Part shown: one piece after another, positions 9,616-30,604 of the stretch | Layout of the letters: each line of letters opens with the position of its first letter | Position numbering within the stretch: the stretch's first letter is position 1 | Assembly: GCF_001886695.1 (NCBI RefSeq) | Contig: NZ_CP018097.1 | Coordinates: forward strand, 1,054,001 to 1,118,000 | Origin: Aurantiacibacter gangjinensis | GTDB taxonomy: Bacteria > Pseudomonadota > Alphaproteobacteria > Sphingomonadales > Sphingomonadaceae | Reading direction: 5' to 3' | Length of the DNA: 64,000 nt | Made by a program: the position numbers and the translations under genes | Notes under the pieces: generated by a model | The model's database searches: none | Seen by the model: only the letters and a program-made list of their open reading frames with translations | Told to the model about the DNA's origin: nothing

Positions 9616-9631
9616 CGTTTCTGTGACGCCT

Positions 9632-11937: not shown

Positions 11938-13305
11938 TCATCGCAAATGCCGGGGGCGGGGCAGCGGGGGCATCCAGAGCAATGTCAGCAGCATGGTGGC
12001 CGACAATTGGTGGATGGCGGTGCGCAGCGGGTAATCGAAGGCGCTGGCCACCACGAGAATGGCGAGGATCGCTGTCGCAAGCCCGATAAAGCCGCTATCC
12101 TGTGTGTTGGCATCTTCAGCCCCGAGGCGCGCCCGCGCCCGGCGTATCGCCAGAACAATGACGGCGATCACGAAGCCAGCCATCACGATACCACCTTCGG
12201 CCAGCAGCTGGGCAATGTCGTTATGCGCCATGTTCACATATTCCGGACGCAGGTTCTGCGGCAATTCGTAGGCGTAATACACATCCTCGAATGCGCCGAT
12301 ACCGACGCCAAAAGGCAGGAAATCGCGCGCCATCGCAAGCGTATGCGGCAGGATTTCAAACCGCCTGTCCTGTAGCGGATCGGCGCCGACGATCCGGTCT
12401 ATCGCCGGCACGCTGGAGAGCAGCGGCAGCAACAGGGCGACTGCGATAGCGCCGCCACCCGCGGCGACCAGGGCGAGCCGACGCGGCGTGAGGCCCAACC
12501 GCTGGCGGCGCTCTTCGCCCAGCACCCTGCGCGGGGCCAGCCATGCGATGAAGGCAAGCGCCACCAGCAGGCAGAGGAAGCCGCCACGCGACGTGGAAGT
12601 GAGGGCGGATAGAAAGAGCAAGACGGCGGCGAAACCGGAAAAGCCCTTCGGCCAGAGCTTGAGCGTGTCGAACAGCCATGCCGCGATGGCCAGTCCGATG
12701 ACGACGAAAACGGCATGGTGGTTGGTGTTGGCGAAGATGCCCACCGGCTTGCCGTCATTGGTGATGGCATAGAGATAAAGCTGGCCGGTCGCCTGCTGGA
12801 TGAAAGCGAGCGTTGCAGACAGCACGGCGAGCGCCACGCAAGCGGTCAGCACGGTGATGACCGCGCGCTCGCCAAGCCGCGAGACGGCGAGGATGCCGGC
12901 GAGCGGTATGGCCATCAAACCCAGGGCATTGAGCGTGCGCTGCGGATCGAGGCTGAGCGGGCGGGCAAAGCTGAGGCCGAGCGCTTCCTCCAGCTGCGCA
13001 ATATCTTCGCGGCCCGGCAACATCGTCCACACACCGTGCGGCAGTGGGATGAGCGTCAGTGCCAGCCATCCGCAATAGGCAAGGGCGAGAAAGAGGAGCG
13101 GCTTTGCGGCCAAAGGTCGCGCCGCGGTCGCGACCAGCACGCCGAGAATGATCCACGCGCCCAGCTGCAGTGGCGGCCCCTGCACCATGTCGAAACGCGA
13201 ACTGCCGCCAAGTGCGGCCACCACCAGCACCAGGATGATGAAAATCGCCATATCGAGCGTACGCACCTCGCCCGGCGCGCTTCGCGTGCTTTTCCGACCC
13301 GTCAC
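11938..13305 (-). CDS. O-antigen ligase/polymerase-like membrane protein (Wzy/WaaL family)
   Basis: This 455-residue protein has about ten hydrophobic segments from residue 18 onward, a long periplasmic loop around 310-370 and the family-type segment FGVGIGAFEDVYYAYELP, followed by AHNDIAQLLAEGGI, as in O-antigen ligase (PF04932) proteins. Such proteins either polymerise repeat units (Wzy) or ligate glycan to an acceptor (WaaL), and sequence alone does not separate these. A second polymerase-like protein, EpsG type, lies at 28093. It ends 173 bases before the tyrosine autokinase gene on the same strand. The polar N-terminus (MTGRKSTRSAPGEVRT) may mean a start slightly downstream. Confidence 0.85.
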   Translation of the reverse strand: MTGRKSTRSAPGEVRTLDMAIFIILVLVVAALGGSSRFDMVQGPPLQLGAWIILGVLVATAARPLAAKPLLFLALAYCGWLALTLIPLPHGVWTMLPGREDIAQLEEALGLSFARPLSLDPQRTLNALGLMAIPLAGILAVSRLGERAVITVLTACVALAVLSATLAFIQQATGQLYLYAITNDGKPVGIFANTNHHAVFVVIGLAIAAWLFDTLKLWPKGFSGFAAVLLFLSALTSTSRGGFLCLLVALAFIAWLAPRRVLGEERRQRLGLTPRRLALVAAGGGAIAVALLLPLLSSVPAIDRIVGADPLQDRRFEILPHTLAMARDFLPFGVGIGAFEDVYYAYELPQNLRPEYVNMAHNDIAQLLAEGGIVMAGFVIAVIVLAIRRARARLGAEDANTQDSGFIGLATAILAILVVASAFDYPLRTAIHQLSATMLLTLLWMPPLPRPRHLR

Positions 13306-13449
13306 CCAAACCTCCCGAAGCGCTGCGGCAATGCGCGCCTATAGAGCGGCTTGGACCTGCGCTTCAACCGAAACCGCGAAGGATGAAGCCGCGCTTGCCA
13401 AGCTGCGTGTTTGCGTCCACCGACGCCGGGCGCAATGGTTGGAAGGGTC

Positions 13450-14589
13450 ATGGGAAAGTCCGGTCTGCATATCGTCGTCACCGTCAATGCCGCGTGGAAT
13501 ATCTGGAATTTCCGCCGCGACCTGATGGCGGCGCTGATCGCGGACGGACACCGTGTGACGATCCTCGCCCCGTCGGATGAGCATGTCGCGAAGCTGCAAG
13601 AGATCGGCTGCGAATTCCGGCCGCTGGAGATGGATCGCAAAGGCTTCAACCCGCTGGCCGAAATCGCGCTCTTCCGCCGGTTTCACAGCGCATTCGGGGA
13701 GCTGAAGCCCGATGTGGTGCTGGGCTACACCATCAAGAACAACATTTTCGGATCGCTTGCCGCGCGGCTGCGAGGCATCCCGTTCATCCCGAACGTGACC
13801 GGCCTAGGCACCGCCTTTCTCTCCAGCCCGATGGTGGCGAGGATTGCGCGGACGCTTTACCGAGCGGCTTTTGCCAAGGCCGATACGGTGTTTTTCCAGA
13901 ACGAGGACGATGCCGCCATGTTCGTGGAACAGGGTATGGTGCGGCGGGAGCAGGTGCAGGTCCTGCCCGGCTCCGGCATCAACCTCGATGAATTTGCTCC
14001 CGCGCCTTCGCCGCGCGCCGATGATCTGCCGGTCGTCCTGATGATTGCGCGGCTGTTGCGCGACAAGGGGGTGATGGAATTCGTCGAAGCCGCGCCGATC
14101 GTGCGCGAACGGCACCCCAATGCCATCCTGCGGCTGGTAGGCGCGGCGGGGAGCGACAATCGCACCTCCTTATCATTGGAGGATATTCACGCGCTGGAGG
14201 CATCGCATGGCGTCCACTATGCCGGACCGACCGACGATGTGCGCGGCGCGATTGCGGAAGCGACCATGGTTGTCCTCCCGTCCTATCGCGAAGGCGCGCC
14301 GCGCACATTGATCGAAGCGGCCGCCATGGCGCGGCCGCTGGTGGCGACCGATGTTCCGGGCTGCCGCGCTGTCGTCGATGACGGGGGGACCGGCTTCCTC
14401 TGCGACGTTCGCAACAGTGCGTCGCTGGCCGATGCCATCATTCGCATGCTGGACCTGCCTGCCAGCGAACGCGAAGCCATCGGAGCGGCAGGCCGAGCAA
14501 AGATGGAGCGCGAATACAGCGTTGCCATCATCGCGGCGCACTATCGTGAGGCCATCGCGCGCGCCACGGGCAAATCGGCGCACGCCTAG
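13450..14589 (+). CDS. Glycosyltransferase family 4
   Basis: This 379-residue GT-B enzyme has an N-terminal acceptor domain with GYTIKNNIFGSLAARL and IPNVTGLGTAF, as in PglA-like enzymes that add HexNAc-type sugars to undecaprenyl-linked glycans. The C-terminal nucleotide-sugar domain has RLLRDKGVMEFVEAA and the acidic pair in PSYREGAPRTLIEAAAMARP (E..E), typical of retaining GT4 enzymes. The start at 13450 (MGKSGLHIVVTVN) follows GGAAGG; longer versions from 13411 or 13435 add only Pro/Gly residues. It probably forms an operon with the nucleotide-sugar dehydrogenase 105 bases downstream. Donor and acceptor are unknown; GalNAc-type sugar is a reasonable guess from context. Confidence 0.9.
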   Translation: MGKSGLHIVVTVNAAWNIWNFRRDLMAALIADGHRVTILAPSDEHVAKLQEIGCEFRPLEMDRKGFNPLAEIALFRRFHSAFGELKPDVVLGYTIKNNIFGSLAARLRGIPFIPNVTGLGTAFLSSPMVARIARTLYRAAFAKADTVFFQNEDDAAMFVEQGMVRREQVQVLPGSGINLDEFAPAPSPRADDLPVVLMIARLLRDKGVMEFVEAAPIVRERHPNAILRLVGAAGSDNRTSLSLEDIHALEASHGVHYAGPTDDVRGAIAEATMVVLPSYREGAPRTLIEAAAMARPLVATDVPGCRAVVDDGGTGFLCDVRNSASLADAIIRMLDLPASEREAIGAAGRAKMEREYSVAIIAAHYREAIARATGKSAHA

Positions 14590-14693
14590 CGGAAAAACTG
14601 GCAATGGACTGCGCTGGCGCAAGCGACTAAGCGGCCATGCCATTGGCGCTTTTCCATTGGCGCAGGCATCAAATCCAAGCGGGACCAAGTCAC

Positions 14694-15968
14694 ATGAATC
14701 TCGACAATGCGCGCATCGCGATCATCGGTATGGGCTATGTCGGCCTGCCGCTGGCAAGCGAGTTCGGCAAGAAACGCGATGTCGTGGGATTCGATATCGA
14801 CGCCGGCCGCATCGCGCAGTTGCAGGACGGGCATGACCGCACCGGCGAAGTCGATGCCGCAGAACTGGCTGAAGCAAAAGGCTTGCAACTGTCGGCGGAC
14901 AAGCGGGATCTAGCCGATTGCACCGTGTTTATCGTAACCGTGCCTACGCCCATCGACGATCACAATCGCCCGGACCTGACTCCGCTGGTCAAGGCCTCGC
15001 AGATGATCGGTGACGCGCTGAAAAAGGGCGACATCGTCATCTATGAAAGCACTGTCTATCCGGGCGCGACCGAGGAAGTGTGCGTGCCCGAGCTGGAAGC
15101 GGTATCGGGGCTCAAATTCAACGAAGATTTCTTCTGCGGCTATTCGCCAGAACGCATCAATCCCGGCGACAAGGAGCGCCGCCTGCCCAGCATCCGCAAG
15201 GTGACATCGGGCTCGACGCCGGAAGTGGCCGATGCCGTGGATGCGCTCTACGCCTCGATCATTGCCGCAGGCACATACAAGGCCGAGAGCATCCGCGTGG
15301 CCGAGGCTGCGAAGGTTATCGAAAACACGCAGCGCGACCTCAACATCGCGCTGGTCAACGAGCTTTCGATCATCTTCAACCGGCTGGGCATCGATACCCT
15401 CGCCGTGCTCGAAGCCGCGGGCACGAAATGGAACTTCCTGCCGTTCCGCCCCGGCCTTGTCGGCGGCCACTGCATCGGCGTCGATCCGTATTACCTGACC
15501 TACAAGGCCGAGGCGATCGGCTATCACCCGCAGGTGATCCTGGCCGGTCGGCGCATCAATGATGGCATGGGCGCCTATGTCAGCGGCGAACTGGTCAAGA
15601 CCATGTTGCGCCGCCGGATCCATGTGAACAATGCGCGCATCCTGGTGCTGGGCCTCACCTTCAAGGAAAACTGCCCGGACCTGCGCAATTCGCGCGTGAT
15701 CGACGTGATCCGCGAATTGCAGGATTACAACGCGCAGGTCGACGTGCACGATCCGCTGGCCGACGCCGAAGAGGCGAAGCGCGAATATGACGTGAAACTG
15801 GTGTCGAGCCTCGACGACAACACCTACGATGCCGTGGTGCTGGCCGTCGCGCATGAGGATTACAAGGCGATGGGCGCCAGCGGCATTCGCGCGCTGGGCA
15901 AGGAAGAGCATGTATTCCTCGACCTCAAGTCCATTTTCAACGCCGATGAAAGCGACCTGCGCCTCTGA
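14694..15968 (+). CDS. UDP-N-acetyl-D-galactosamine (or GlcNAc) 6-dehydrogenase, WbpO/TviB type
   Basis: This 424-residue nucleotide-sugar dehydrogenase oxidises C6 of a UDP-HexNAc to the uronic acid with two NAD+. The N-terminal NAD motif is [12 protein letters not shown], the catalytic cysteine is Cys260 in [13 protein letters not shown], and [19 protein letters not shown] is typical of the WbpO/TviB group rather than UDP-glucose dehydrogenases. The start at 14694 ([11 protein letters not shown]) is chosen because it leads straight into the Rossmann strand; a longer frame from 14637 adds 19 unrelated residues. With the WbpP-like epimerase at 7382 it should supply UDP-GalNAcA. Confidence 0.88.
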
Positions 15969-16009: not shown

Positions 16010-16864
16010 TCAGCTAAAGGCGTTTTCCGCGAAATCGCCCGATTTCACTGTGTCGTCGATGCGCTTCAGCGTCGAGAGCAGGCCTTCCATCATGTCGAGC
16101 GGCCAGGCATTGGGGCCGTCCGACTTGGCATTGGCGGGATCGGGGTGCGTTTCCATGAACACGCCTGAGATACCCGCTGCAATGGCTGCACGTGCCAGCA
16201 CCGGCACGAATTCGCGCTGCCCGCCCGAAGATGTGCCCTTGCCGCCGGGAAGCTGGACCGAATGGGTCGCATCGAACACGACCGGGCAACCGGTCTCGCG
16301 CATGATGGCGAGGCCGCGCATGTCGGAAACGAGGTTCTGGTAGCCGAAAGACGCGCCGCGTTCGCAAACCATGATATTCTCGCCCGTGCCGCCCGCCGCT
16401 TTCGCCGCGTCGCGCGCTTTTTCGACCACATTGGCCATGTCGCCCGGTGCCATGAACTGCGCTTTCTTGATGTTTACCGCGGTGTCGCGTTCGGCCACGG
16501 CGCAGATGAAATCGGTCTGGCGGGCGAGGAAGGCGGGCGTCTGCATCACGTCGACGACTTCGGAAACGGGGCCGACCTGCTCCTTCTCGTGCACGTCGGT
16601 CAGCACCGGAACGCCGACTTCGCTTTTCACCTTGGCAAGAATTTTCAGGCCTTCATCGAGGCCCGGGCCGCGAAAGCTCTTGCCCGATGTGCGGTTCGCC
16701 TTGTCGAAAGAGCTCTTGTAGATGAAGGGGATGCCGAGCCGATCCGTGATTTCCTTCATCGCGGTCGAGGTGCGCATGGCCATGTCTTCCGATTCGATGA
16801 CGCAAGGGCCGGCGATCAGGAAGAACGGTTTGTCGATGCCGATATCGTGTCCGCACAGTTTCAT
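16010..16864 (-). CDS. kdsA: 3-deoxy-8-phosphooctulonate synthase (Kdo8P synthase)
   Basis: This 284-residue aldolase-type enzyme condenses arabinose 5-phosphate with PEP to form Kdo 8-phosphate. Family segments are [36 protein letters not shown] and [10 protein letters not shown], and the length is normal. It is the last gene of the operon kdsD-kdsB-HAD-kdsA and follows the HAD gene by 20 bases. Because Sphingomonas is known to carry glycosphingolipids in place of lipopolysaccharide, a complete Kdo operon inside a polysaccharide locus suggests Kdo is used in the capsule here; that is inference. Confidence 0.97.
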
Positions 16865-16884: not shown

Positions 16885-17727
16885 TCAGCCGAGCGCTGCC
16901 AGCGCGTCGACCGTTGCAACAAGGTTCAGTGTGTCGGTGCCGGGTGAGGGGGCAGCTGTGCTGCCGCTGCCATTTCGGCTCCGTGTGTCCAGGCCAGCCC
17001 CTACCCCGCTCGTTACGTAAACGAAAGCGATTCCGTATTCGTCCGCGCCGCGCAGGTCTGTCTTGGCGTTGTCGCCGATGGCGAGAACACGGCGGCGATC
17101 GATATCGCTGCCCGTGATTTGCCGCGCAACAGCCAGCGCACGGTCATAGATCGGGGCATAGGGCTTGCCGAAATAGACGACCTCGCCGCCAAGCCGCTCA
17201 TATTCTTGTGCAATTGCGCCTGCGCATAGTTCCCGCACGCCGTCGCGCTCCACCTCGATATCGGGATTGAGGCAGATCATGGTCGCGCCGCTTTCGGCGC
17301 CTGCGCGCACTTCATCCGCGTGATGGGCAAGATCGTTCGCATGACCGTCAGCGAAACCGCAACAGACGATGATGTCGCTATCCGCCGCTGTGCCCGAAAA
17401 TTCCAGACCCTCGCTCGCCAGCGCCTCCCGGTCGCGCTGCGAACCGATGAAACCGGCACTCTGTCCCTCATGCTCGCGCAAATAGGCCAGCGCTGCATCG
17501 CCGGAGCTGACGATCCCGTCATAGCAATCGGGCGCGATGCCGAGGCCGTCGAGCTGGATCTTTACCGCAGGCGCCGGGCGCGGGGCATTGGTAAGGAAGA
17601 CGATGGTGCGCCCTTCGCCCTTCCATGCCCGCAACAGGTCCAGCGCGCCGGGGAAGGGGCGCGCGCCATTGTGCACGCAGCCCCACAGGTCGCACAGAAT
17701 GACGTCGTAGGACGGGTCCAGCGTCAT
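16885..17727 (-). CDS. HAD-superfamily (class IIA, TIGR01459-like) protein in the Kdo operon
   Basis: This 280-residue protein starts at 17727 in a 4-base ATGA overlap with the kdsB stop; a longer frame to 17802 is rejected for that reason. Motif I is [10 protein letters not shown] (nucleophile Asp13), a threonine motif occurs in VFLTNAPRP, and motif IV is [13 protein letters not shown], as in the NagD-like class IIA group. The general acid Asp usually found two residues after the nucleophile is Trp15, which is usual for the DxWG subgroup. It sits exactly where a Kdo8P phosphatase is needed, and no KdsC of the normal small HAD-III type is in the window. Whether it replaces KdsC is open; the Trp argues for caution. 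Confidence 0.85.
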
Positions 17728-18527
17728 GAAACGCCCATGATCCGCAGGCTGTTTTCGACATGCTCGACATCGCTGGGATTGTTGAGCTCCCAGATGTCCC
17801 ATTCGGGCGGCGCGACTTCGACCACGGTGATGGGCGCGCCCATATCGAGGAAGCGCAGCTGTTCGAGACCTTCCAGCTGTTCAAGCGCGGTGGGCGAATG
17901 CTCGACATAGGCGCGCAGGGCGGCAGGGCGATAGGCGTAGAGGCCGATATGCAGCAGCAGCGGCAGCTTGTCGTCGTCTACCTCATCGCGGGCGAAATGC
18001 GGGATCATCCGCTTGGAGAAATAGTGTGCGTGGCCCTTGCCGGACGTCGCGGCGAACGTCCCGCCGACAATGCCCTTGCGCTCATCGGCGGCCAGCGTTT
18101 CGTACAGACTGGCCGACACGCGCACGACAGGCGTTGCAACGGCCGCGGACTCGTCTGCCGCCATGCGTTCGATCAGGCTTTCGACGAAATAGGCTGGCGT
18201 CAGCGGCGCATCGCCCTGCAGGTTTACGATAAGGTCGGGCTCGGCATCCAGCTTACCCAGCACCTCGGCGCAGCGTTCGGTGCCATTGCGGCATTCAGGC
18301 AAGGTCCAGATCGCTTCGCCGCCAAAGCCTTCGACCGCATCGACGATTTCCTGGCTGTCGGTCGCCACGGCGACGCGCGACACGCCCTCGACCCGCATGG
18401 CCGCTTCCCAGCTACGATGGATCAGCGACTTTGCCTCGCCATCCTTGCCGCGCAGCGGGGCGAGCGGCTTGCCCGGATAACGCTGCGAAGCGAAGCGTGC
18501 GGGGATGACGATCATCACATCGGCCAT
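17724..18527 (-). CDS. kdsB: 3-deoxy-manno-octulosonate cytidylyltransferase (CMP-Kdo synthetase)
   Basis: This 267-residue enzyme activates Kdo with CTP to CMP-Kdo, the donor for Kdo transferases. Family segments are VIPARFASQRYPGKPLAP at the N-terminus, VATDSQEI and VNLQGDAPLTP. The gene overlaps the HAD gene by four bases and follows kdsD by 30 bases. CMP-Kdo made here is the natural donor candidate for the GT29-type transferase at 21323-22522, since GT29 enzymes are known to use CMP-activated ulosonic acids. Confidence 0.97.
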   Translation of the reverse strand: MADVMIVIPARFASQRYPGKPLAPLRGKDGEAKSLIHRSWEAAMRVEGVSRVAVATDSQEIVDAVEGFGGEAIWTLPECRNGTERCAEVLGKLDAEPDLIVNLQGDAPLTPAYFVESLIERMAADESAAVATPVVRVSASLYETLAADERKGIVGGTFAATSGKGHAHYFSKRMIPHFARDEVDDDKLPLLLHIGLYAYRPAALRAYVEHSPTALEQLEGLEQLRFLDMGAPITVVEVAPPEWDIWELNNPSDVEHVENSLRIMGVS

Positions 18528-18557: not shown

Positions 18558-19523
18558 CTAGCGCGCGCCGGCGCGCAGGCAATCATGCACATGCACCACG
18601 CCTGCCAGCGTGCCGTCCTCATCGACCACGGGCAGCGCGCTTACCTTGTTGCCGCTCATCAGCGCCATGGCCTCTTCCACAAGGCAGGACGGTGCGATGG
18701 TCATCGGCTTCTTGGTGGCAGTAGAACCGGCATCGCGGTCCAGCAGGCCATCCATATTGCGGCGCAGATCGCCATCGGTGATGACGCCCAGCAGCTTGCC
18801 GTCCTCCAGCACGGCAGCAACGCCGAGCCCCTTGGCCGACATTTCGACCAGCACATCGCCCATGGAATCGCCCGCGCGCACCGCGGGCACGGCATCGCCC
18901 GTATGCATGATGTCGCCCACGCGCAGGAATTGCGCGCCCAGCTTGCCGCCGGGATGGAAGACGTGGAAATCTTCCTTGCGGAAACCGCGCATCCGCATCA
19001 CCGCAACCGCCAGCGCATCGCCCAGCGCCAGCGTGCAGGTGGTAGACGTGGTGGGCGCCATGCCGACGCTGCACGCTTCCTCCGCCTGCGGCAGCAGCAG
19101 CGCGACCTCTGCCTGGCGCGCCAGCGTGCTGTCGGCCTTCTTGGTGATGGCGATCATCGGAATGTCGAAGCGTGCGACATAGGCCAGCAATGCATGCAGT
19201 TCCGCCGTTTCGCCCGAATTGGAGAGCACCAGGCACACATCGTCGCGGGTGATCATGCCTAGGTCGCCATGGCTGGCCTCGGACGGATGGACGAAGAAGG
19301 AGGGCGTGCCGGTAGAGGCCAGCGTGGCGGCAATCTTGTTACCGATATGGCCGGACTTGCCCATGCCCGAGACCACCACGCGGCCCTTGCAATCGCGCAG
19401 CAGCGTGGCGGCCGCGTCGAACTCGTCGCCGAGCGCATCGGCCATCTGGGCGAGGGCCGCGCTTTCGATGCGAATAACGTTGGCGCCATGGTGCGCCGGG
19501 GAAATCGAGGATGTATCGTTCAT
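18558..19523 (-). CDS. kdsD: Arabinose-5-phosphate isomerase (SIS + two CBS domains)
   Basis: This 321-residue protein converts ribulose 5-phosphate to arabinose 5-phosphate, the first Kdo precursor. An N-terminal SIS domain (about 30-175; SGMGKSGHIGNKIAATLAST, then HPSEASHGDLGMI) is followed by two CBS domains (about 205-320) with MHTGDAVPAV and PMTIAPSCLVEEAMALM. Length and architecture match KdsD/KpsF/GutQ. It is the first gene of the Kdo operon; the promoter should lie in the 386-base region 19524-19909. Confidence 0.96.
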   Translation of the reverse strand: MNDTSSISPAHHGANVIRIESAALAQMADALGDEFDAAATLLRDCKGRVVVSGMGKSGHIGNKIAATLASTGTPSFFVHPSEASHGDLGMITRDDVCLVLSNSGETAELHALLAYVARFDIPMIAITKKADSTLARQAEVALLLPQAEEACSVGMAPTTSTTCTLALGDALAVAVMRMRGFRKEDFHVFHPGGKLGAQFLRVGDIMHTGDAVPAVRAGDSMGDVLVEMSAKGLGVAAVLEDGKLLGVITDGDLRRNMDGLLDRDAGSTATKKPMTIAPSCLVEEAMALMSGNKVSALPVVDEDGTLAGVVHVHDCLRAGAR

Positions 19524-19909: not shown

Positions 19910-21253
19910 TTAAACCGCGCCAGAAGAGCGCCTCCACTTTCGCAAGTCGGCTATCAAAACTCGGGGATAAAAAGATCGGAGTTTTGCCATGCCATGATGA
20001 CGAGTCTTGCGCCCCAGAAAATCTACCAACCAACCGGCTACAATTTCTCCTGCGAGCGCTCCGATGGCCATGCCCATGGCTCCGTATTTTATCGTCAAGG
20101 GTATACCAAACAGAGCGGTGATTAAAAGGCCAACAAGTTGGCGACGGAAAGCCAACCAAAGTGACTCTTCTGCAACATACCACGTGCCGGAAATCTTTCG
20201 CCACCCGGCAAACAGCGCGGCCCATATGTGGATTGTCATTAAGATGGCGACACCTTGAAACTGATCGCCATAAAGTATCTGCTCCAGCGCAGGCGCAACG
20301 ATTGCCATTCCCACCGCAGCCACGAGTGACAAAATGGTAGCAGTTTCGATTACGCGCATCAATCTTAGCGAGACTTCCCCCTTGGCGCCTCTCTCAACCG
20401 TAGCCTCTTCCATAATTAGAGGTGCGGCTGCAGCAACGATAGCAGCTTGAACGACGACCCAGGCAGTGGTGATGCGAAGCGCTGCCGTAAATATTCCCAA
20501 TTGCTCGTCATCCGAAAAAATCTTCAAAACGATGACGCCCACCGCCGCAAAAGCAGCGCCAGCAACAGCGGCTGGCAAAAGGGGGATGCTTTCGGAAAGG
20601 CGCGATAACGCAGTCTGAAGGTTGCCGGGTGACCAATTCGGTCGGGGACGTTGCAGGAAATAGAAGATACAAAGACTTATGCCTTGGGCGAAATATTCGA
20701 CAAGATAAGTAAGCGCGAAAAAGAACACGTTGGGGTCATAGAGGGCAAAATATACCCGTAGCGAACCGGCGGTAAGGAGAGCCGCGATTGAACTAGCAAG
20801 GATCAATTCGCCTTTACGCGTCGCAAGAAAAAAACGATCAAGTGTTGAAGTGCACTGCGGAATGAGCCCGATCAACATGATCAGCACGTATTGTGCCTGC
20901 TCACCGACGCCGATGGCGAGCACAGCAAGCATTGCGACTGCACAGACGAGTGAGGCCATCGTTACGCGCGTGAGCAGGTTTTGCGTCACGATCCGGTCGC
21001 GATCCTCCGGCTCCCGGACGATCCATTTCACTAGCGACGCATCGAGCCCTAGCACCGCGAAGGGTGTGGCGAGGGCCAGCATTTGCAGTGCAAAGCCGAG
21101 TTCCCCGAACTCGGCAGGTCCTAGAGACCGTGCAACAAGCGCCCCGATCAAAATGCCGGAAATGAGGCGGACAACACGCTCGCAGATTATCGATACGGTA
21201 TGAAGCCGTGCCGAACGTGGCCGTTCCGACGGGGAGGGCGGTTCAATTGGCAT
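19910..21253 (-). CDS. Polysaccharide flippase (Wzx / MATE-like oligosaccharide transporter)
   Basis: This 447-residue integral membrane protein has about twelve to fourteen hydrophobic segments. The N-terminal pattern ERVVRLISGILIGALVARSLGPAEFGELGFALQM (described by position 25-58) is the usual Polysacc_synt fold, with the conserved LGP..FG feature. It should flip undecaprenyl-linked repeat units across the inner membrane. Base composition is visibly lower in GC than the genes around it, as is common for wzx genes and consistent with horizontal exchange. It lies 69 bases downstream of the methyltransferase-GT29 fusion and is probably co-transcribed with it. Confidence 0.9.
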   Translation of the reverse strand: MPIEPPSPSERPRSARLHTVSIICERVVRLISGILIGALVARSLGPAEFGELGFALQMLALATPFAVLGLDASLVKWIVREPEDRDRIVTQNLLTRVTMASLVCAVAMLAVLAIGVGEQAQYVLIMLIGLIPQCTSTLDRFFLATRKGELILASSIAALLTAGSLRVYFALYDPNVFFFALTYLVEYFAQGISLCIFYFLQRPRPNWSPGNLQTALSRLSESIPLLPAAVAGAAFAAVGVIVLKIFSDDEQLGIFTAALRITTAWVVVQAAIVAAAAPLIMEEATVERGAKGEVSLRLMRVIETATILSLVAAVGMAIVAPALEQILYGDQFQGVAILMTIHIWAALFAGWRKISGTWYVAEESLWLAFRRQLVGLLITALFGIPLTIKYGAMGMAIGALAGEIVAGWLVDFLGRKTRHHGMAKLRSFYPRVLIADLRKWRRSSGAV

Positions 21254-21322: not shown

Positions 21323-22522
21323 TTAAGTTCGTACTTTGGTCGCTTTAAACAGTTCGACGTCATCGCTTTCCGACGCGAGCTTTTCGAGGTAGCGAGCTTC
21401 GGCAGCGAAATCGTGTGGATGCGATTGCGAGGGGTCGATATTGGATAGCGAGCCGGTAGAGAAACCGTCGAAACCATAGAGGCTTAGCTTGTACGGGCCG
21501 AGATTTAGCACCAGATCGACTATCATCATGCCGGTCGACGGACGCGCACCGAGCTTCTCCCGAAGTTTTTTATGCATCGATTTAGGATAGCGGGCGATAT
21601 CTCTCTTTGGTGACAACATCCAAAGCGGCAGCTGCATCGTTTTCGGTGTCATCCAGAGGATGAGTGAAACATCTCGGCCGTCTGGCAAGCCGGACGACAC
21701 GTACGTGCTAGTCGCAAGCCAGTCCGTTTTCGTGCCATGGCTTTGCGCCGTCAGGATCGGTCCGCGATTCATGCGGACGACAATATCGTGCCGGTCAATA
21801 TCCGATCCGTGGGATTTGTCCGCCAAGCCGCTGGCGTTGCCGACGATGGCTACCGACTTTCCGGCAACGCGGCTGCGCATCTCCTTGACGCCGACCCAAT
21901 TCCTGAGTCTGCTACCGAGGAGCTTTCCCGGATAGAGGACAAGGTCCTGCGCTCGTTTCTTGGCCCTTTCCTTCCGGCGAAGGCGTCGTACTTTATCTAG
22001 CGCTTCATCTGCGACGGACCATGTCGTAAAGGCAGCAGCCGTATCCTGTTTCGTCGGCACGGGACATGCCTTTCCGAAGACCTTCTCGATCTTCGCTTGC
22101 CACCATTCAGCGCTACGGACAGTGCAATGCGCGTTGTCGCCATTAGCCAGGATGTGATCGGCAAATGTCAGTGAAATGACGAATAAGGCGTCATCCGCAT
22201 AGCTGCGAACCTGCGCCAGAACATCGTCAACCTGCTCTTCCGGGACGTGCTCCATAACGTCGGTGCAGAGCGCCAATCCAAGCTTTCGCGTTGGCGGGTT
22301 CGAAAATTCCGGAACGTAGGGATCGAAAAGTTCGATGTCATGCCCGGCCTCGCGCAAGGCCTTGCCAAGCATTCCTTTGCCACATCCGAAGTCGAGAAGG
22401 CTTTCCGGCGTACGGTCCGCGATGATCGGCTCGATAAAAGGCACCAGCCGAGCGCTGGTTCGGCCGAAGGAGTCCGATACCTTATGCAGGCTCGTATACA
22501 GATTCTGGTTCTCTTCCGCCAC
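21323..22522 (-). CDS. Fusion: SAM methyltransferase + family 29 (sialyltransferase-like) glycosyltransferase
   Basis: This 399-residue protein joins two enzymes. Residues 1-170 form a class I methyltransferase with the SAM motif LLDFGCGKGMLG (DFGCGKG at 44-50) and a DVMEHVPEE segment. A basic linker (about 175-210; RRLRRKERAKKR) leads to a GT29 domain. That domain has a sialylmotif-L-like stretch (222-266) with SVAIVGNASGL, DRHDIVVRMNRG and GTKTDWLATS, a motif-S-like RPSTGMMIVDL with LSLYGFDG (327-353), and a VS-like H-x4-E as His370/Glu375. GT29 enzymes are known to use CMP-sialic acid, and plant members are implicated in Kdo/Dha transfer. With the Kdo operon next door, CMP-Kdo is the likely donor here. 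The methyltransferase target, perhaps the added sugar, is unknown. Confidence 0.82.
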   Translation of the reverse strand: MAEENQNLYTSLHKVSDSFGRTSARLVPFIEPIIADRTPESLLDFGCGKGMLGKALREAGHDIELFDPYVPEFSNPPTRKLGLALCTDVMEHVPEEQVDDVLAQVRSYADDALFVISLTFADHILANGDNAHCTVRSAEWWQAKIEKVFGKACPVPTKQDTAAAFTTWSVADEALDKVRRLRRKERAKKRAQDLVLYPGKLLGSRLRNWVGVKEMRSRVAGKSVAIVGNASGLADKSHGSDIDRHDIVVRMNRGPILTAQSHGTKTDWLATSTYVSSGLPDGRDVSLILWMTPKTMQLPLWMLSPKRDIARYPKSMHKKLREKLGARPSTGMMIVDLVLNLGPYKLSLYGFDGFSTGSLSNIDPSQSHPHDFAAEARYLEKLASESDDVELFKATKVRT

Positions 22523-22719: not shown

Positions 22720-24666
22720 TCAAGGTCGCCTGCGTCTCCACGCCTGGAACATCAGCACGTTCCACAGCAGGGCCTCGTGGTCTTGCCTGCCCGAAAGGTG
22801 CTCTTCCCAGCGGCGGCGGATCGTGTCCACATCCAACAGGCCGCTCTTTGCCAACGCATCGCGCGACAATTCGCTTTCCGCCCAGTCGCGAAGGCCCGTG
22901 CGCAGCCAGCGACCCACGGGGATTGCGAAGCCTGCCTTGGGCCGGTCGACCAGTGCGCGCGGCACATGGGTGTAAAGCATTTCTCGCAGCAGGCGCTTGC
23001 CGATGCCGGCGCCCGCGCGCATGTCGGCGGGCAGGCTCCATGCGAAGCGGTAGAGGTCGCGCTCCAGATAGGGTGTGCGCGTTTCCAGCGAGACAGCCAT
23101 GGCGGCCCGGTCCACTTTCACCAGCACATCGTCGGGCATGTAATTGGCGGTATCCACCAGCATGGCGCGGTGCGCGAAGTCCAGCGCAGCGGCGCGGGCA
23201 TCCTGCCGCGCGGGCAGGCGCGACATGCGCGCATCGACGGCCAGCAGGCTGGCCGGGTCGTCCGACGTCGCCAGCAAACGGTCATGGAAGGCCGCCTCGT
23301 CTGCGACGCCGATAACGCGGGCGAGCTTGCGCACCTTTTCTTGGGCGCGGCCGGATGCGAGTTCACCCGGAAGGATAGGCCCGGCGATCCGATAGGTTGC
23401 GGCCGGCACGGCGCGCAGCGCAGCACCGAGCATCCGGCGCGCCGGAGCGGGCAGGCGCGCCATACGGTTCCAGACTTTGGGGCCGGTAAAATAGCGATTG
23501 TAGCCGCCGAAGATTTCGTCTCCTCCATCGCCGGAAAGCGCGACGGTCACATGCTGGCGCGCCATGCGGGAGACGAGAAAGGTCGGCACTTGGCTGGAAT
23601 CGGCGAAGGGCTCGTCATGGATGGCGCCGACTTCGGGGATGACGTCCTGCACCTCGGCGGGTGAGAGGACCAACTCGGTATGATCGGTGCCCAGATGGGT
23701 GGCGACCGCCTTGGCAGCGGGAGACTCGTCATAGCCATCTTCCGCCATGCCGATGGAAAAGGTGCGTACCGGCGCGCTCGCGGCGCGCTGCATCTGCGCG
23801 ACGACCATGGAGCTGTCGATGCCGCCCGACAGGAAAGCGCCGAGCGGCACGTCGGACACCATGCGGCGCGCTGTCGCCGCCTGTAGCAGGGCATCGCCGC
23901 GTTTGCGCGCCTCGTCCAGCGAGCCTGCGAACATCTCCTGCCGCGCTGCCAGCGCATCGCCGACATGGTCCCACCACCGTTCTGGTTGCGGCAGGGCACC
24001 TGCCTGCACATTGTCCAGCGACACCGTAAGCCGGTGCGCGGGTTGCAGCTTGGAAATGCCCTGCCAGATCGATTGCGGCCCGGGCACGTAGGAATATTTG
24101 AAGAAATCGCCCAGCGCATCCAGGTCCATCGCAGCATCGAAGCCGGGCAGGGCGGCGATGGCTTTCAGTTCCGATGCGAACAGCAGCGAGCCTTTGTGCA
24201 GGCCATAATACAACGGCTTCTCGCCAAAGGCATCGCGGATCAGCGTTAACTCGCGTTGGGCGTGGTCGAACAGGGCGATGGCGAACATGCCGTCCACCCG
24301 GTCCAGCGTATCGGCGATGCCGTCACGCGCGAAGCATTCGAGCAGCACCTCGCTGTCGGAATGGCCGCGCCACGCGATTGCACCGTGCCGCGCTTCGAGC
24401 TGGCTTCGCAGATCCGGGAAATTGTAGATTTCGCCGTTAAACGCCATCGTCATGCGCCCGTCATGCGAATGCATGGGCTGCGCGCCGGCTGGCGACAGGT
24501 CGATGATGGAGAGGCGGCGATGGCCGAAGGCGATCTGGCTGCCAGCCTCGATCCAGTGACCGTCCGCATCAGGCCCGCGGTGGACGATGGCCGCCGTCAT
24601 CGCGGCGAGCGCGACGCGTGGATCGCCTGGAGCGCCGAAGCCGAAAAAGCCTGCTATTCCGCACAT
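22720..24666 (-). CDS. AsnB-like glutamine-dependent amidotransferase of a polysaccharide locus
   Basis: This 648-residue protein has the N-terminal class II glutaminase with catalytic Cys2 (MCGIAGFFGFG), RGPDADG and FNGEIYNF, then the synthetase domain with the ATP pyrophosphatase loop FLSGGIDSSMV. True asparagine synthetases are about 550 residues; this longer form resembles amidotransferases of exopolysaccharide and O-antigen clusters. WbpS-type proteins are known to amidate uronic acids in such clusters. With UDP-GalNAcA enzymes at 7382 and 14694, amidation of GalNAcA is a good guess. It follows the GT4 gene by seven bases, so it belongs to the operon that begins at 27952. Confidence 0.88.
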   Translation of the reverse strand: MCGIAGFFGFGAPGDPRVALAAMTAAIVHRGPDADGHWIEAGSQIAFGHRRLSIIDLSPAGAQPMHSHDGRMTMAFNGEIYNFPDLRSQLEARHGAIAWRGHSDSEVLLECFARDGIADTLDRVDGMFAIALFDHAQRELTLIRDAFGEKPLYYGLHKGSLLFASELKAIAALPGFDAAMDLDALGDFFKYSYVPGPQSIWQGISKLQPAHRLTVSLDNVQAGALPQPERWWDHVGDALAARQEMFAGSLDEARKRGDALLQAATARRMVSDVPLGAFLSGGIDSSMVVAQMQRAASAPVRTFSIGMAEDGYDESPAAKAVATHLGTDHTELVLSPAEVQDVIPEVGAIHDEPFADSSQVPTFLVSRMARQHVTVALSGDGGDEIFGGYNRYFTGPKVWNRMARLPAPARRMLGAALRAVPAATYRIAGPILPGELASGRAQEKVRKLARVIGVADEAAFHDRLLATSDDPASLLAVDARMSRLPARQDARAAALDFAHRAMLVDTANYMPDDVLVKVDRAAMAVSLETRTPYLERDLYRFAWSLPADMRAGAGIGKRLLREMLYTHVPRALVDRPKAGFAIPVGRWLRTGLRDWAESELSRDALAKSGLLDVDTIRRRWEEHLSGRQDHEALLWNVLMFQAWRRRRP

Positions 24667-24673: not shown

Positions 24674-25780
24674 TCAGCCCCGGCTTTTGCTTGCGCTATG
24701 CAGCAGGTCTTCCCACGCCGAAATCACATTCTCCGCAGAGAATTGTGCGACCGTCGCCGGAGCGACGCGGCCCATGCGTTGTCTCCTGTCTTCGTCGCGG
24801 ATCATCGCATCCATCGCCCCGGCGAGCGCCGCCGTGCGGTCGGAGCCGGGATCGACCAGCACTCCGTTTTCGCCATCGTCGATCAAGGCTGCCGGACCTG
24901 CGCAATCGGCGAAGCCGATGACAGGCCTTCCACTCGCCATGGATTCTACCGCGACAAGCGATAGCGACTCGTTGCGCGACGGTACTACGGTGAAAGCGGC
25001 CTGCCCGTATTCGGGCATGACATCGCGGATAATGCCGGCAAGCTCGATCCTGTCCGCATGAATTGTCGTGGAGAGCAGCGCTTCGATTTTCGGGCGGGTC
25101 GCACCGTCGCCGACGATGCGCAGGTGCCAGTCCGGGTGATCGGCAGCAATTGCATCGAAGGCCGCGATCAGCGTGTCGTGGCCTTTCTCTTCCCGCAGCC
25201 CGCCAACGCACAATATTCGTGCCTGCGGTGTTGCTCGGATATTGGCGGAAAACTGACCTATCGCCACCGGGTTCGGCAGCACAACGACCCTAGCTTGCCG
25301 TTCAGCGGGATGTTCCCGCCGGATCGCCTCGGATACAACTGTTTTCGCATAACTCTGCCGGTGAACCAGATTTACCAAGGCGCGCTGAAGCGGCTTGTCC
25401 GCGAAATATGCGAGGCTGGCATGCTCGCTCAGCACGAGCGGAATGCCGGTGCCGAGTAGGCTGAAGGTCATCGGGACGTACGTCGAATGCATGAAACCGA
25501 TTGCAACATCAGGGTGGAGCGATGCCGCCAGTTTTCGCAGCCGCGCCATGGTCACGGCCACACTGCGCCGGGGTGTCGGCAGGCCCGGCTTCCCGGTGCC
25601 AAGCCTATGCACTGAGACGTCTTCTTCCACATCGTAGAAGAGAGCGCCTTCGGGTCGATCGAAGGTCGCGATAACGACGTCATGCCCCTTTCGCGCCATG
25701 GCATTTGCCACATCGACGAAGACACGCTCCGCACCGCCGCCCTCGATAACCAGGCCCTTGATGACGAAGAGAAGTTTCAC
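24674..25780 (-). CDS. Glycosyltransferase family 4
   Basis: This 368-residue GT-B enzyme has an N-terminal domain with KGLVIEGGGAERVFVDVANA, typical of GT4 acceptor domains, and a C-terminal domain with ILCVGGLREEKGHDTLIAAF and an EX7E-type acidic pair around RNESLSLVAVESMASGRPV. It is cytoplasmic and should add one sugar to the lipid-linked repeat. It lies three bases from the acetyltransferase gene upstream and seven bases from the amidotransferase gene downstream, in one operon. The sugar donor cannot be read from sequence. Confidence 0.92.
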   Translation of the reverse strand: MKLLFVIKGLVIEGGGAERVFVDVANAMARKGHDVVIATFDRPEGALFYDVEEDVSVHRLGTGKPGLPTPRRSVAVTMARLRKLAASLHPDVAIGFMHSTYVPMTFSLLGTGIPLVLSEHASLAYFADKPLQRALVNLVHRQSYAKTVVSEAIRREHPAERQARVVVLPNPVAIGQFSANIRATPQARILCVGGLREEKGHDTLIAAFDAIAADHPDWHLRIVGDGATRPKIEALLSTTIHADRIELAGIIRDVMPEYGQAAFTVVPSRNESLSLVAVESMASGRPVIGFADCAGPAALIDDGENGVLVDPGSDRTAALAGAMDAMIRDEDRRQRMGRVAPATVAQFSAENVISAWEDLLHSASKSRG

Positions 25781-25783: not shown

Positions 25784-26524
25784 TTACCCGGACGCTTCGA
25801 TCGTCGGCCGTGTCACCAGCACTTTGGCATCGTCATCCAGCGGCTTGATAATTTTGGCCGGATTGCCGCCCAGCAAAACTTCGCTTTCGCTGAAGGCTTT
25901 CGTGACGACGCTGCCGATGCCCACGATGCAGGACGGGCCAATCGCGGCGCCCGGTGCCATCTGGATGCCGGAGCCGAGATAGGTGTTATCGCCAATGGTG
26001 ATAGGGCCATCGAGATGGCGATTATGCGTCCACAGGCTGGATAGCCTGCCACCCAAAATCACGCTGTCACCCAATGTCACGCCGCCGGTGAAGTCGATCT
26101 TGTGCTGCGCCGTGATGACCGACGCCTTGCCCAGCGAAAAATGGCCCGCAGTCTCGCTGGCCTGCTCGCTGCCGGTATCGCGCGCTGCATTGATGATGCC
26201 GTTGACCTCGTTGAAGCGGTAGATTTGCGCCTGTTCGCCAAAACTGGCGGTGCGTCCGCCGCGCACGACATTGCCGATACCGAAAAACGCATCCGTGCCG
26301 ATCTTCAATCGCTCACAGTGCAGGAAGATATTGCCGTGCCCGATGCGCACCCCATCGTCGATCGCGCAGCGACCGACGACGATCAGGCTCAGCCCGATGC
26401 TTACGCCGCGCCCGATGCGATAGCCGAAGATATGGCGGTAAATCGGGATTTTCAGGAAAGATGGCAGCACCGCAATGGCCGCGGCCATTAGAAGCCAGAG
26501 CTTGCCCGTCCTGCGATAGGTCAT
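25784..26524 (-). CDS. Left-handed beta-helix acyltransferase (WbbJ/colanic acid type)
   Basis: This 246-residue protein has a short hydrophobic N-terminus (LLMAAAIAVLPSFL) and then hexapeptide-repeat segments of the [LIV]-G-x4 type, such as GVRIGHGNIFLHCERLKIG and TIGDNTYLGSGIQMAPGAAIG. These form the left-handed beta-helix of acetyltransferases that use acetyl-CoA. In this context O-acetylation of the polysaccharide or of a precursor is likely. A lower-than-usual number of perfect hexapeptides is visible in the middle part, which is common in the family. It is inside the 27952-22720 operon. Confidence 0.87.
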   Translation of the reverse strand: MTYRRTGKLWLLMAAAIAVLPSFLKIPIYRHIFGYRIGRGVSIGLSLIVVGRCAIDDGVRIGHGNIFLHCERLKIGTDAFFGIGNVVRGGRTASFGEQAQIYRFNEVNGIINAARDTGSEQASETAGHFSLGKASVITAQHKIDFTGGVTLGDSVILGGRLSSLWTHNRHLDGPITIGDNTYLGSGIQMAPGAAIGPSCIVGIGSVVTKAFSESEVLLGGNPAKIIKPLDDDAKVLVTRPTIEASG

Positions 26525-26536: not shown

Positions 26537-27952
26537 CTAGAGCCCTTGTCCGGCCGACATATAGCCGGGCCGCTCGACGTTGAAGGCCTGCAGGATCGAA
26601 GGCGCGATTTCGCGCGTGGAGATACCGTGGCTCTCGAAGTCGGGGCGGGTGGCGCGATCCTGCGGGTCGTAGATCAGCATCAGGCCCTGCGGAATGTGGT
26701 AGGCATTGGCGCCGGCTGCATCCTGCAAGTGCATGTTCGTAATGCCGATGCTTTCCGCATCGACGGCATCGCCCTGCAATTGGACATCGAGCGTTTCTAG
26801 GTTCTCGGCCTTCAGCTCCAGCCGCAGGATATTGTTGCCCAGATCCTGCACATCGATGTGGTGCCCACTGATATCGAGGCCGCCCAGCCGCTGGATCAAT
26901 TGTTGCTTGGCGCCATCTTTGACGTGCACATTATATTGCGGGGCCATGGACGGGCGCCGCTCCCAGTCCTCGCGCGAAAGGCCAAGGCCATCCATAAGCC
27001 GTGCCATGTTGGAAATGGTGACGGCGGAGGTGACCGGTGCCCGCTCTTCAACCGCTTCCTGTCCCATGCTGGTGGTGACCACCAGCTGGAACTCGCCGGT
27101 CCGGTCGCACAAATCCAGCAGGCGGGCGATCTGGTCGTTCGCTTCCTTCATCGCGAAGGGAATCTCGCCGCCCCACTGCTTCGTCCATTCCTCGGGGAAT
27201 CGGCCTGCCTCATAATCGGCGGGGAAGAGCGATGGCCAATAGCGGTGCATGGAGGATGCAACATGGTTGGTGAAGAAGAAGGATGCGTCGGGTTTTTCCT
27301 GCTTCAGCGCCTTGAAGAAGAAATCGAAGGCCAGCTGCGCCTGGCTGCTGCGGCGGCGCACGACGCGGTCCTTGTTCACACGTTCGGATGCAAGCTGGCC
27401 TGCCAGCTTCGCCACCGTGCGCGGTGCGAGCCCCAGGCCCGGAGCATTACGCAGGAAAGTAGCTGCATCGCGTAGCGGCAGGCCGCGCTTCACGTTCATG
27501 GCGTTCTGTTCGACCATGGCGATGTTGAAACGCTGGAAGGATTCGAATTTCTTGGGAAAGGTTTCCGGTCCGGCGGCAAATGTATCGGGCACGTAAAAGG
27601 CGTAATCCGATGCATCGGCCGGCATGGGATAGGAATGTAGCGAACCGAACAGACCGACTTTCCGGCCGGCTTTCTGCAGTAACGACCAGACGGGGGGCAC
27701 CTCGCGGTTCACGGCAGACAGGTCCATTCCGAAATCGGAGATTTCGTGCATCTCGTTGGTGACGCCGCGATGCAGGGTGGGCCAGGTGATCCAGGGGGAC
27801 AGGTGCCCCGTATCTTCGGCCATCGTCTCGTATTTGCGGGCGTGCTTTGCCAGCCGCGCGAACGCACCATAGCCGGGCTGGGCGGCGAAATGTTCGAAGA
27901 CGCGGCGGGGGACTTCGTTCAGTTCGTAGAAAATGGTCTTGGTCGAGCGCAT
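26537..27952 (-). CDS. Alkaline phosphatase/phosphodiesterase-superfamily protein with altered metal site
   Basis: This 471-residue protein starts at 27952 (MRSTKTIFYELNEVPRRV); a longer frame to 28084 runs into the divergent promoter region. The opening FYELNE and the segment WITWPTLHRG (54-63) fit the type I phosphodiesterase/sulfatase-like superfamily, where the first acidic residues bind metal and the Thr is the nucleophile. The later metal motifs look degenerate: where D-H-G is expected the sequence has TSMGQE (294-299), and FFTNHVASS (226-234) replaces the D/H-rich segment. Related proteins occur in O-antigen and capsule loci without known function. It may have lost hydrolase activity or transfer a phospho-group. 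It is the first gene of a four-gene operon. Confidence 0.68.
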   Translation of the reverse strand: MRSTKTIFYELNEVPRRVFEHFAAQPGYGAFARLAKHARKYETMAEDTGHLSPWITWPTLHRGVTNEMHEISDFGMDLSAVNREVPPVWSLLQKAGRKVGLFGSLHSYPMPADASDYAFYVPDTFAAGPETFPKKFESFQRFNIAMVEQNAMNVKRGLPLRDAATFLRNAPGLGLAPRTVAKLAGQLASERVNKDRVVRRRSSQAQLAFDFFFKALKQEKPDASFFFTNHVASSMHRYWPSLFPADYEAGRFPEEWTKQWGGEIPFAMKEANDQIARLLDLCDRTGEFQLVVTTSMGQEAVEERAPVTSAVTISNMARLMDGLGLSREDWERRPSMAPQYNVHVKDGAKQQLIQRLGGLDISGHHIDVQDLGNNILRLELKAENLETLDVQLQGDAVDAESIGITNMHLQDAAGANAYHIPQGLMLIYDPQDRATRPDFESHGISTREIAPSILQAFNVERPGYMSAGQGL

Positions 27953-28092
27953 TGCCTGAATAGCGACAGCCGCGAGAAACGCGCCTGCTCCAGATAGTTC
28001 GGGTTGCCGAGGCCATAGTGGAGCGGCTATCGGATGCAAAGTTTTATGTGGCACCCAGCCACCTGTGCGCACACGGACGGCCAACTTCTCCC

Positions 28093-29163
28093 ATGTTCCC
28101 TTATCTCGGATTTATCTCGCTTTTCGCGATGTTGGTGCTCTTCGGAAGGCGTGAGCGTATGTCGGTTATGGCGGCAGCGCTGGCCGTCGTAGCCATCACG
28201 ATATTTGTCGGATTACGCCATAATGTCGGTATGGACTGGAACAATTATCTTTGGATGACGAACCGCGTCGACGTGGCATCGACTATCGGCGGAAAGCTCG
28301 GAGTGACGGAGCCGGGCTACGCGTTTTTACTTTGGATTTCGACATGGACGGGGCTTGGGATTTATTTCACGAACTTCGTTGCCGCACTGCTTTTCGCATT
28401 AGGATTGGTGCGATTTGCGCGCACCTGTCCGTCGCCGACATTGGCGTTGCTTTCAGCAATACCTTTTCTCGTTCTTGTGATTGCCATGTCAGCGAACCGT
28501 CAGGCGGTAGCGCTCTCGGTCATGCTGCTTGCGCTGGCACGATGGCCAGCAATGAGCCTCAAAGGCAGGCTAGTCGCCGTGGGTATCGCGGCCACATTCC
28601 ACTATAGCGCCATCATCTACGTGATATTCGCTGCCTGGGATGTGCGGGTGCGCCAGGAATTTCGTCTGGTGGGTGCCGCCGTCATATCTTTGGCAGCAAT
28701 TTTTCTGCTCGATAGTCTCGGCCGGGTGGATTACGCGACTGAAGCATACATGTCCGGAGATGAATACGCCCAAACTTCAGGTTCGATCTTGCAGATGGCG
28801 CTCACTGTAGGACCGGCGCTCCTCCTCCTTCTGTTCTGGAGAAAGCGCGACCTTCTCTTTCCGCAAGGTGTCGTTCGGCAACTCGCTCTCTTCGCTTTCG
28901 CACTCCTGCCGGTCGGCCTGCTCTATCCCGTGCTTACCGCGCGCGTGCTGATCTATACTTTTCCGATGGCGATGTACGTCTGGTCTTCCTTGCCGCAAAT
29001 CGTCATGCCTCGAAGCCGGGTATTCGTTTCGCTTGCCACGGTAGCGGTGATGTTCGCGCAAATGCTTTTGTGGTTAAATTTCTCCCCGAATGCGCGCGCT
29101 CATTTTCCGTACCAGAACTTTCTCGGGATCGAAGCGTGGGAATGGGAGACCGGCCTTAGCTGA
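28093..29163 (+). CDS. EpsG-family polysaccharide polymerase-like membrane protein
   Basis: This 356-residue protein has about ten membrane segments. The segments [15 protein letters not shown] and [10 protein letters not shown] are typical of the EpsG family (PF14897), which is related to Wzy polymerases of exopolysaccharide loci. The start at 28093 ([14 protein letters not shown]) leads straight into the first membrane helix; an upstream frame from 28018 adds a polar tail over the divergent promoter. GC content is lower than its neighbours. It is the only plus-strand gene in this part of the locus, and its 3' end overlaps the convergent gene at 29156 by eight bases. This is the better candidate for the repeat-unit polymerase. 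Confidence 0.82.
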
Positions 29164-30604
29164 GCGTTGCGGCAACTTTCTCAATCGCTTCCAGATTTGC
29201 CGGGGCTCCCGGCCCGATGGCATCCCACGCCGCGATAAAAAGGTCTTTCCGCTTTGCAGGGTCGCGCACCGCGCCGACCAGCGCGAAAAGTTCTGCCTCG
29301 TCATTCGCCAGTAGCGGGTAATCGGCATATTGCAGGTCCGACTGCAGCGGCGCCGCATTGGCGACGATCGCCGGCTGGCCCAAACGCAGCGCATCGGTCA
29401 TCACGGTCGAAGGCGAGGTAATCACGATTTCCATCTCACCCAGCGCCTCATAGGGCAGGTCGTCCGGCCAGCGCGTAAATCCAACATCGGCGATCTTTTT
29501 TTCCAACAGCGCGCGATGTGTTTCATCAACTAGCCGGATATGCGGATGCGGCCGCCACACAATGTCCCCCGGCGATCGCCCGACCTCTTTCGCTACCGCT
29601 GCCGTCCAGGTGACAAGCCTCCGATCCGCCTCGCTGCCGTGGGCGTGGTAATCGTCATGATCCAGATGGCTGTACGACGTCAGCAGCGCCCATCGTTTAG
29701 ATGGTGCAGCCAAAGCGGGTCGTGGACAAGGGACGTGCGTCACCCGTCCATAGCCCGGCAGACTGGCCGCGAGCCTGGCATCGGCGGCGGTCTGGAAGAT
29801 CGCCAGATCGGAAAAACCTGCAAAGGACCAGCCGATATTCGTACCATGCACCACATGGACGGTGCGCATTCCCGTTGCCTGCATCGCCCGTTCCAGAAGG
29901 CTGGTGTCTGCCGTGCCGGTATGGGCGAAGAGCGCATGCGGAGGCGGCGATGACGGCGAGGCCCGGTGCCACCACTCGGCCATGCCCAATCCGAGCGCGA
30001 TGCGAAACAGGATCGCCACTGTTTCCCGCGCCGGAACGCGGCGTGGAAAATTGCTGTAGTCGTGGGCGGTATCCCAGACGAAGCGAATGTAGCTGGGTAA
30101 AGCCCACAAGGCAGTGCCGAAAGTCACCGGCCGCAGAAATCGAGGATCTCGTAATACGGACATCGGATCGGAACGCGCCGCGATGTGGGAAACGGAGGTG
30201 GAGGGTCGTCCTAGCGACAGTACGATTGGCCTGTCGATATCGGCCCTTGCGATCGCTGCTCGCAAATCGCGAACGCGCGTCGTGTCCTCGCCATGCATGG
30301 CGAAAAGGCGCGGTGCGCCATCCATGATTGCGCGCGATGCCGCGGGTGCGCTGCCACCCCATCGCAAAATCACCCAGAGCAGAGAGATCGCGCCGGCTAC
30401 TGCCGCGGCAAGATACAGCGCGTAACCAGCGATGAGGCTCCGCCGACGCGCAGGGTTCGGCCCGGCAATGGCAAGCCAATTACCCAACTCCATCTGCAGA
30501 AGCGGGTCGCGAACATTTCCGACGCCGTTGAGCACCCGTCCCGTCCGGTCGTCACGCAAATGGCCACGGCCTGCTCCCTGTGCAGCGGACGAACCCGCTG
30601 TCAT
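29156..30604 (-). CDS. Unrecognised polysaccharide-locus protein, GT-B-like C-terminus
   Basis: This 482-residue protein starts at 30604 in a 4-base ATGA overlap with the pyruvyltransferase stop; the Arg-rich extension up to 30709 is rejected. A hydrophobic segment near 60-80 ([23 protein letters not shown], by position) suggests membrane attachment. The C-terminal half has [24 protein letters not shown] and [20 protein letters not shown], which resemble the donor-binding half of GT-B enzymes such as KpsS- or TagF-like surface-glycan transferases. No specific family is claimed. Position in an operon with a pyruvyltransferase and sulfate-activating enzymes supports a role in making or modifying the polysaccharide. 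Confidence 0.65.

Follow-up and report, generated by a model that had tools for sequence, protein, structure and literature searches.

The window, a stretch of 64,000 nucleotides of the Aurantiacibacter gangjinensis contig NZ_CP018097.1, includes a Wzx/Wzy-type exopolysaccharide cluster at approximately 9.6–32 kb, of which a CMP-Kdo operon is a part (Table 1). Within this cluster lies a single gene encoding a SAM methyltransferase fused to a GT29 domain (MT-GT29), preceded by 'AAGG' a few bases 5' of its start codon. The operon named in the original prediction was recovered, with kdsA, kdsB and kdsD identified by Pfam and NCBIfam models. The HAD-IIA phosphatase occupies the position where a canonical kdsC might be expected and is a possible Kdo-8-P phosphatase.

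Table 1. Features of the fusion gene and the surrounding polysaccharide cluster (positions in the window)
Feature	Position	Strand	Details
Wzz/GNVR/tyrosine-kinase-type chain-length protein	9632..11764	-	
Wzy_C/O-antigen-ligase-type protein	11938..13305	-	
GT4 glycosyltransferase	13411..14589	+	
TviB-type UDP-sugar dehydrogenase	14637..15968	+	
kdsA, Kdo-8-P synthase	16010..16864	-	NCBIfam E 2e-130
HAD-IIA phosphatase, kdsA/kdsB interval	16885..17802	-	TIGR01459 E 1e-44; also in G001
kdsB, CMP-Kdo synthetase	17724..18527	-	Pfam/NCBIfam
kdsD/kpsF, arabinose-5-P isomerase	18558..19523	-	Pfam/NCBIfam
wzx-type flippase	19910..21253	-	Polysacc_synt E 1.7e-20
MT-GT29 fusion gene	21323..22522	-	399 aa, GTG start, single uninterrupted ORF
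GT29 domain (PF00777)	21368..21868	-	~residues 219-385; Pfam E 9.8e-13, AF2 pTM 0.80
Sialylmotif VS, H370-x4-E375	21398..21415	-	invariant H175/E180 in alignment A4, 49 sequences
SAM methyltransferase domain (Methyltransf_23)	22115..22447	-	residues 26-136, Pfam E 2.9e-11
AsnB-type amidotransferase	22720..24666	-	Pfam
GT4 glycosyltransferase	24674..25780	-	Pfam
Hexapeptide acyltransferase	25784..26524	-	Pfam
ORF515, conserved cluster gene without family match	26537..28084	-	
EpsG/Wzy-type polymerase	28018..29163	+	
ORF517, unannotated	29156..30709	-	W[R/K]PHP + TPS motifs
Polysaccharide pyruvyl transferase (PF04230)	30601..31623	-	also beside GT29 in L051, L055, L057

The third-position GC content of wzx (0.55) and of MT-GT29 (0.64) was lower than that of most neighbouring genes, which suggests that the two were acquired together. 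Within the fusion gene it agreed between the halves (0.63 and 0.66), whose composition was alike, and the codon-position bias ran through both. The fusion protein was present in one copy in its own genome, on a 2.5 Mb contig of an assembly that is 100% complete.

Domains and fold of the fusion protein

Both halves matched their Pfam families far beyond chance: Methyltransf_23 with 43.8 bits against a cut-off of 27, and Glyco_transf_29, from residue 223 onward in two stretches, with 48.6 bits against a cut-off of 23. The methyltransferase half, of class I, carries the SAM-binding motif DFGCGKG, while the GT29 half carries sialylmotif L (AIVGNASGL...DIDRHDIVVRMN), sialylmotif S (RPSTG...LYGFDG) and sialylmotif VS, whose H and E were invariant across the 49 aligned homologues. 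The combination of these motifs in one 399-residue chain, as originally predicted, was confirmed. The top PDB match of the fusion in a plain sequence search was pig ST3Gal1.

AlphaFold2 was of no use for the full-length protein without an alignment (pLDDT 34), and the GT29 half was therefore modelled with the 49 sequences (pTM 0.80). The best structural match of this model in the VIA alignment was mammalian ST3Gal1 (2wnb, Z 15.8, rmsd 3.8, 184 aligned); the top 14 rows were all GT29 enzymes (Z 12.8–15.8), with the GT42 enzyme CstII below them at 10.0, and GT29 sialyltransferases were also the top Foldseek matches. Rows outside GT29/GT42 (HPPK, SteA, Maf) were attributed to a common Rossmann-like topology. 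As modelled, the GT29 half has the GT29 variant GT-A fold, in agreement with the family assignment of the original prediction. The fusion is a GT29-fold protein with intact motif residues, joined to a methyltransferase.

Distribution and neighbourhoods of the two halves

GT29 proteins were rare around this organism, occurring in 2 of 385 genomes of the class sample, 3 of 299 of the family and 9 of 398 of the phylum, with the window genome counted in each. Scanning of approximately 85,000 species genomes with a GT29 alignment gave 192 relatives; the alignment used was the narrower of two (the first was too diverse), which biases the matches to Rhodobacteraceae, and the nearest relatives found, 36–46% identical, were mostly from that group. 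Neighbourhoods and architectures were inspected for the best 80 of the 192. None of these 80 had the methyltransferase, the fusion was present in none of 148 relatives, and among the relatives searched with the fusion protein the GT29 half was matched only in the window genome. A literature search returned no relevant paper on a GT29-methyltransferase fusion or on methylated-Kdo enzymes, and the fusion appears new in architecture. Two of the GT29 relatives that were checked proved to be in-frame GT4-GT29 fusions in Rhodobacteraceae-type contigs (L092, 6672–8522; L101, 4419–6158). A GT29 match at 324788–325405 in the 484-kb genome of the uncultured phage LR756508.1 was weak (26% identity, E 1e-4).

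Among the best 80 of the 192 relatives, a GT4 gene lay upstream of GT29 in about half of the loci, and in 11 the Kdo-transferase gene waaA closely preceded GT29, a pyruvyl transferase gene separating the two in 8 of them. In loci such as L051 (7649–10561), this position downstream of waaA points to a possible function in the inner core of LPS. A neuA or neuB gene within 8 kb of GT29 was present in 3–4 of the same 80 loci; GT29 genes near neuA/neuB include those of L058, L103, L110 and L131. The family thus belongs to loci for core or surface glycans, and its donor may differ between clades. The L058 protein (locus 6538–12631), a GT29 from Sphingomonadaceae, is extended by a long stretch at its N-terminus, and it stands beside a NeuB and beside a NeuA-phosphatase fusion similar to Kdn-type enzymes. 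The same fusion near kds genes elsewhere, which the original prediction had proposed as a check, was not found in the other genomes searched, and neither kdsA nor kdsB was present in any of the inspected 80 loci (best 80 of 192).

In the collections searched, the nearest relatives of the methyltransferase were mostly small stand-alone phage proteins with approximately 27–40% identity. Some of the phage proteins related to residues 1–150 of the fusion (window 22073–22522) adjoin glycan genes, for example in phage DSL-LC06 and in L046. Since the closest matches of this domain are stand-alone phage proteins, the fusion partner gives little indication of the target.

CMP-Kdo supply and the candidate transferase ORF517

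KdsB was the only strong CMP-sugar synthetase (PF02348) genome-wide, in line with the predicted lack of sialic-acid genes as judged by such synthetases; two weak PF02348 matches resemble a GlmU-type protein and a further nucleotidyltransferase. CMP-Kdo is accordingly the only CMP-ulosonate that this genome appears able to make. The classical Kdo transferases WaaA and KpsC/KpsS were not detected in the genome with Pfam models whose positive controls match in E. coli. WaaA was also absent from all 21 relatives; sphingomonads are LPS-less by nature, with which its absence is consistent. With KdsB as the sole strong CMP-ulosonate synthetase and none of these transferases detected, the simplest choice of donor for a CMP-using GT29 would be CMP-Kdo.

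KdsB was sought in 22 genomes, the window genome included. It was present at 66–72% identity in G001, G053 and G076 and at 38–42% in G054, G711 and G712, and was absent from the other 15, among them G047, which had a NeuA-type match only. KpsC/KpsS were present in G054, G711 and G712 and absent from G001, G053, G076 and the window genome. The G001, G053 and G076 genomes keep kdsABD, the polysaccharide cluster and ORF517, while GT29 was not seen in their clusters, as screened with the fusion protein as query in G001 and G076 and, in G053, negative with the Pfam model as well. The kds genes and ORF517 are physically linked in G053 and in the window, and lie on different contigs in G001 and G076. 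The view that the kds operon points to GT29 was not supported by this comparison: kds tracks with ORF517 in these three relatives, and the operon is better explained by ORF517 (for ORF517 the comparison covers genomes other than G711 and G712). A GT29-kds correlation among Sphingomonadaceae was likewise rejected, as G711 and G712 have both, but their KpsC/KpsS accounts for kds.

The listed TTG of ORF517 overlaps the next gene, and the true start probably lies further downstream. Searches with the protein gave no match in Pfam or among PDB sequences, and no relatives on plasmids; a homologue in G054 (approximately 30% identity) adjoins neuA and neuB. Its W[R/K]PHP and TPS motifs were kept in 5 of 5 aligned homologues. 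In sialyltransferases and Kdo transferases, CMP is bound by a (K/R)XHP motif (PMC12887879), and ORF517 shares this motif and a downstream serine motif with the retaining Kdo transferases of GT107/GT99 (KpsC/KpsS, WbbB), with an H-to-S spacing of 46 residues as compared to 45 in KpsC and 49 in KpsS. In contrast to GT99/GT107, it lacks the conserved QXXXD nucleophile, with T344/H348 invariant at the equivalent position, and has HG in place of (D/E)(D/E)G. Comparison with KpsC/KpsS profiles was not significant (hhalign E ~0.02, probability ~2, as against 83.7% for the positive control KpsC versus KpsS). Because of this result and the missing QXXXD, ORF517 was not filed as GT99/GT107 and is regarded as a candidate by context and motif. 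It is a better candidate than MT-GT29 for the main Kdo transferase, and the best candidate for a Kdo transferase of a new type, from a putative unnamed family.

In the window, MT-GT29 occupies a slot with the wzx region on one side and kds or asnB genes on the other; in the relatives this slot contained other genes: an FkbM methyltransferase in G053, an FkbM methyltransferase with a gene that reads as sulfotransferase-like, without a family match, in G076, and an acyltransferase-3/SGNH protein adjoining kdsD in G001. With other decorating genes at its position, the fusion has the appearance of a decorating enzyme that varies between genomes. The genes cysQ, cysNC and a PAPS-reductase-domain (CysD-type) gene (31676–35242, minus strand) adjoin the cluster; together with the sulfotransferase-like gene in the G076 slot they indicate that some strains may sulfate the polymer.

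Proposed role of MT-GT29

The reading that we favor, at about even probability, is that the fusion decorates a Wzx/Wzy-type polysaccharide with CMP-Kdo as the donor. MT-GT29 would be a two-domain decorating enzyme of the exopolysaccharide of a sphingomonad without detectable WaaA: its GT29 domain would use a CMP donor, with CMP-Kdo the most likely one, to transfer an ulosonic acid to an acceptor that is probably the lipid-linked repeat unit, and its N-terminal methyltransferase would O-methylate the same glycan, either at the just-added residue or at a neighbour. The conserved CMP-Kdo user of the cluster would more likely be ORF517, so that the kds operon would not be there for MT-GT29, which would be a locally acquired extra in the variable decoration slot.

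Use of Kdo by GT29 enzymes has been proposed before, and the statement of the original prediction that this is not a described system therefore holds for the fusion only (PMC11288761, PMC13171606). The plant GT29 protein RCKT1/MGP2 is a proposed CMP-Kdo transferase of RG-II, and its mutants lack RG-II Kdo (PMC11288761). It resembles the fusion in its GT29 domain, in Kdo as the likely donor sugar and in an organism that has CMP-Kdo, with sialic acid scarce or absent, but it is a Golgi membrane enzyme without methyltransferase and is backed by mutants, while the fusion is known from sequence. The GT29-GT107 protein of E. coli K6, whose capsule is putatively poly-Kdo (PMC13171606), is likewise a bacterial multidomain GT29, and comes from a Kdo capsule locus; its partner is a GT107 Kdo transferase module in an ABC-transporter capsule system, in contrast to the methyltransferase of the fusion. 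The bacterial GT29 group, for which neither a transmembrane anchor nor motif cysteines were reported, shares sialylmotifs L, S and VS with the fusion (PMC5811610), which differs in its methyltransferase from the bacterial relatives inspected here (best 80 of 192).

The predicted CMP-Kdo-using GT29 stands in part: the sole CMP-ulosonate appears to be CMP-Kdo, but kds persists in G001, G053 and G076, where GT29 was not seen. The same persistence agrees with a GT29 that uses another donor, such as a UDP-sugar, all CMP-Kdo going to ORF517, and the cluster makes other nucleotide sugars, for example via the TviB-type dehydrogenase. Arabidopsis GALT29A, a GT29 member described as a galactosyltransferase (PMC4234293) and named in PMC11288761, suggests that CMP donors are not obligatory in the family. 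However, sialylmotifs L, S and VS are retained, the best structural matches are CMP-using enzymes and the nearest bacterial relatives sometimes stand beside waaA or neuA/neuB, so that a donor other than CMP-Kdo is possible but rather unlikely.

The original prediction had the GT29 domain as a Kdo transferase served by the kds operon, with the fused methyltransferase methylating Kdo as a chain cap. The operon adjoins MT-GT29, WaaA and KpsC/KpsS were not detected in the genome, and Kdo caps and methyl caps occur in ABC-transporter O-antigens (PMC11231755). WbdD and Klebsiella ORF6-O7 also join a methyltransferase to a second glycan-modifying domain in surface-polysaccharide loci, but their partner is a kinase and they end chains for ABC-transporter export (PMC3482155, PMC11231755), in contrast to the GT29 partner and the Wzx/Wzy-type locus of the fusion. 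A cap fits chains exported by ABC transporters rather than a locus with Wzx, EpsG/Wzy, Wzz-type and ligase-type genes, and kds tracks with ORF517; this version, the chain cap included, is therefore improbable. Terminal caps are not known from the Wzx/Wzy pathway.

A similarly small probability is given to halves acting independently, the GT29 adding a sugar and the methyltransferase modifying a different residue in place of the stand-alone FkbM methyltransferase of the relatives. The FkbM genes in the G053 and G076 slots and the stand-alone occurrence of the methyltransferase family in phages beside other glycan genes agree with this; fusion into one chain, however, usually favors linked steps. 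Finally, although the fusion was found in a single genome, it is very unlikely to be a pseudogene, inactive as a protein or an artefact of sequencing, in view of the intact ORF, the codon-position bias over both halves, the intact motifs of both domains and the large contig in a complete assembly.

On a broader and rather doubtful proposal, some LPS-less sphingomonads would make a Kdo-containing Wzx/Wzy polysaccharide by means of a new Kdo-transferase family (ORF517, without QXXXD and perhaps inverting), to which MT-GT29 would here add, and methylate, a second Kdo. Bacterial GT29 enzymes are almost uncharacterised, and their main donor may be either Kdo or sialic acid; the present genome appears to combine one CMP-ulosonate with one GT29 and has no detected WaaA or KpsC/KpsS, and ORF517 from this locus would represent a protein family that has no name.
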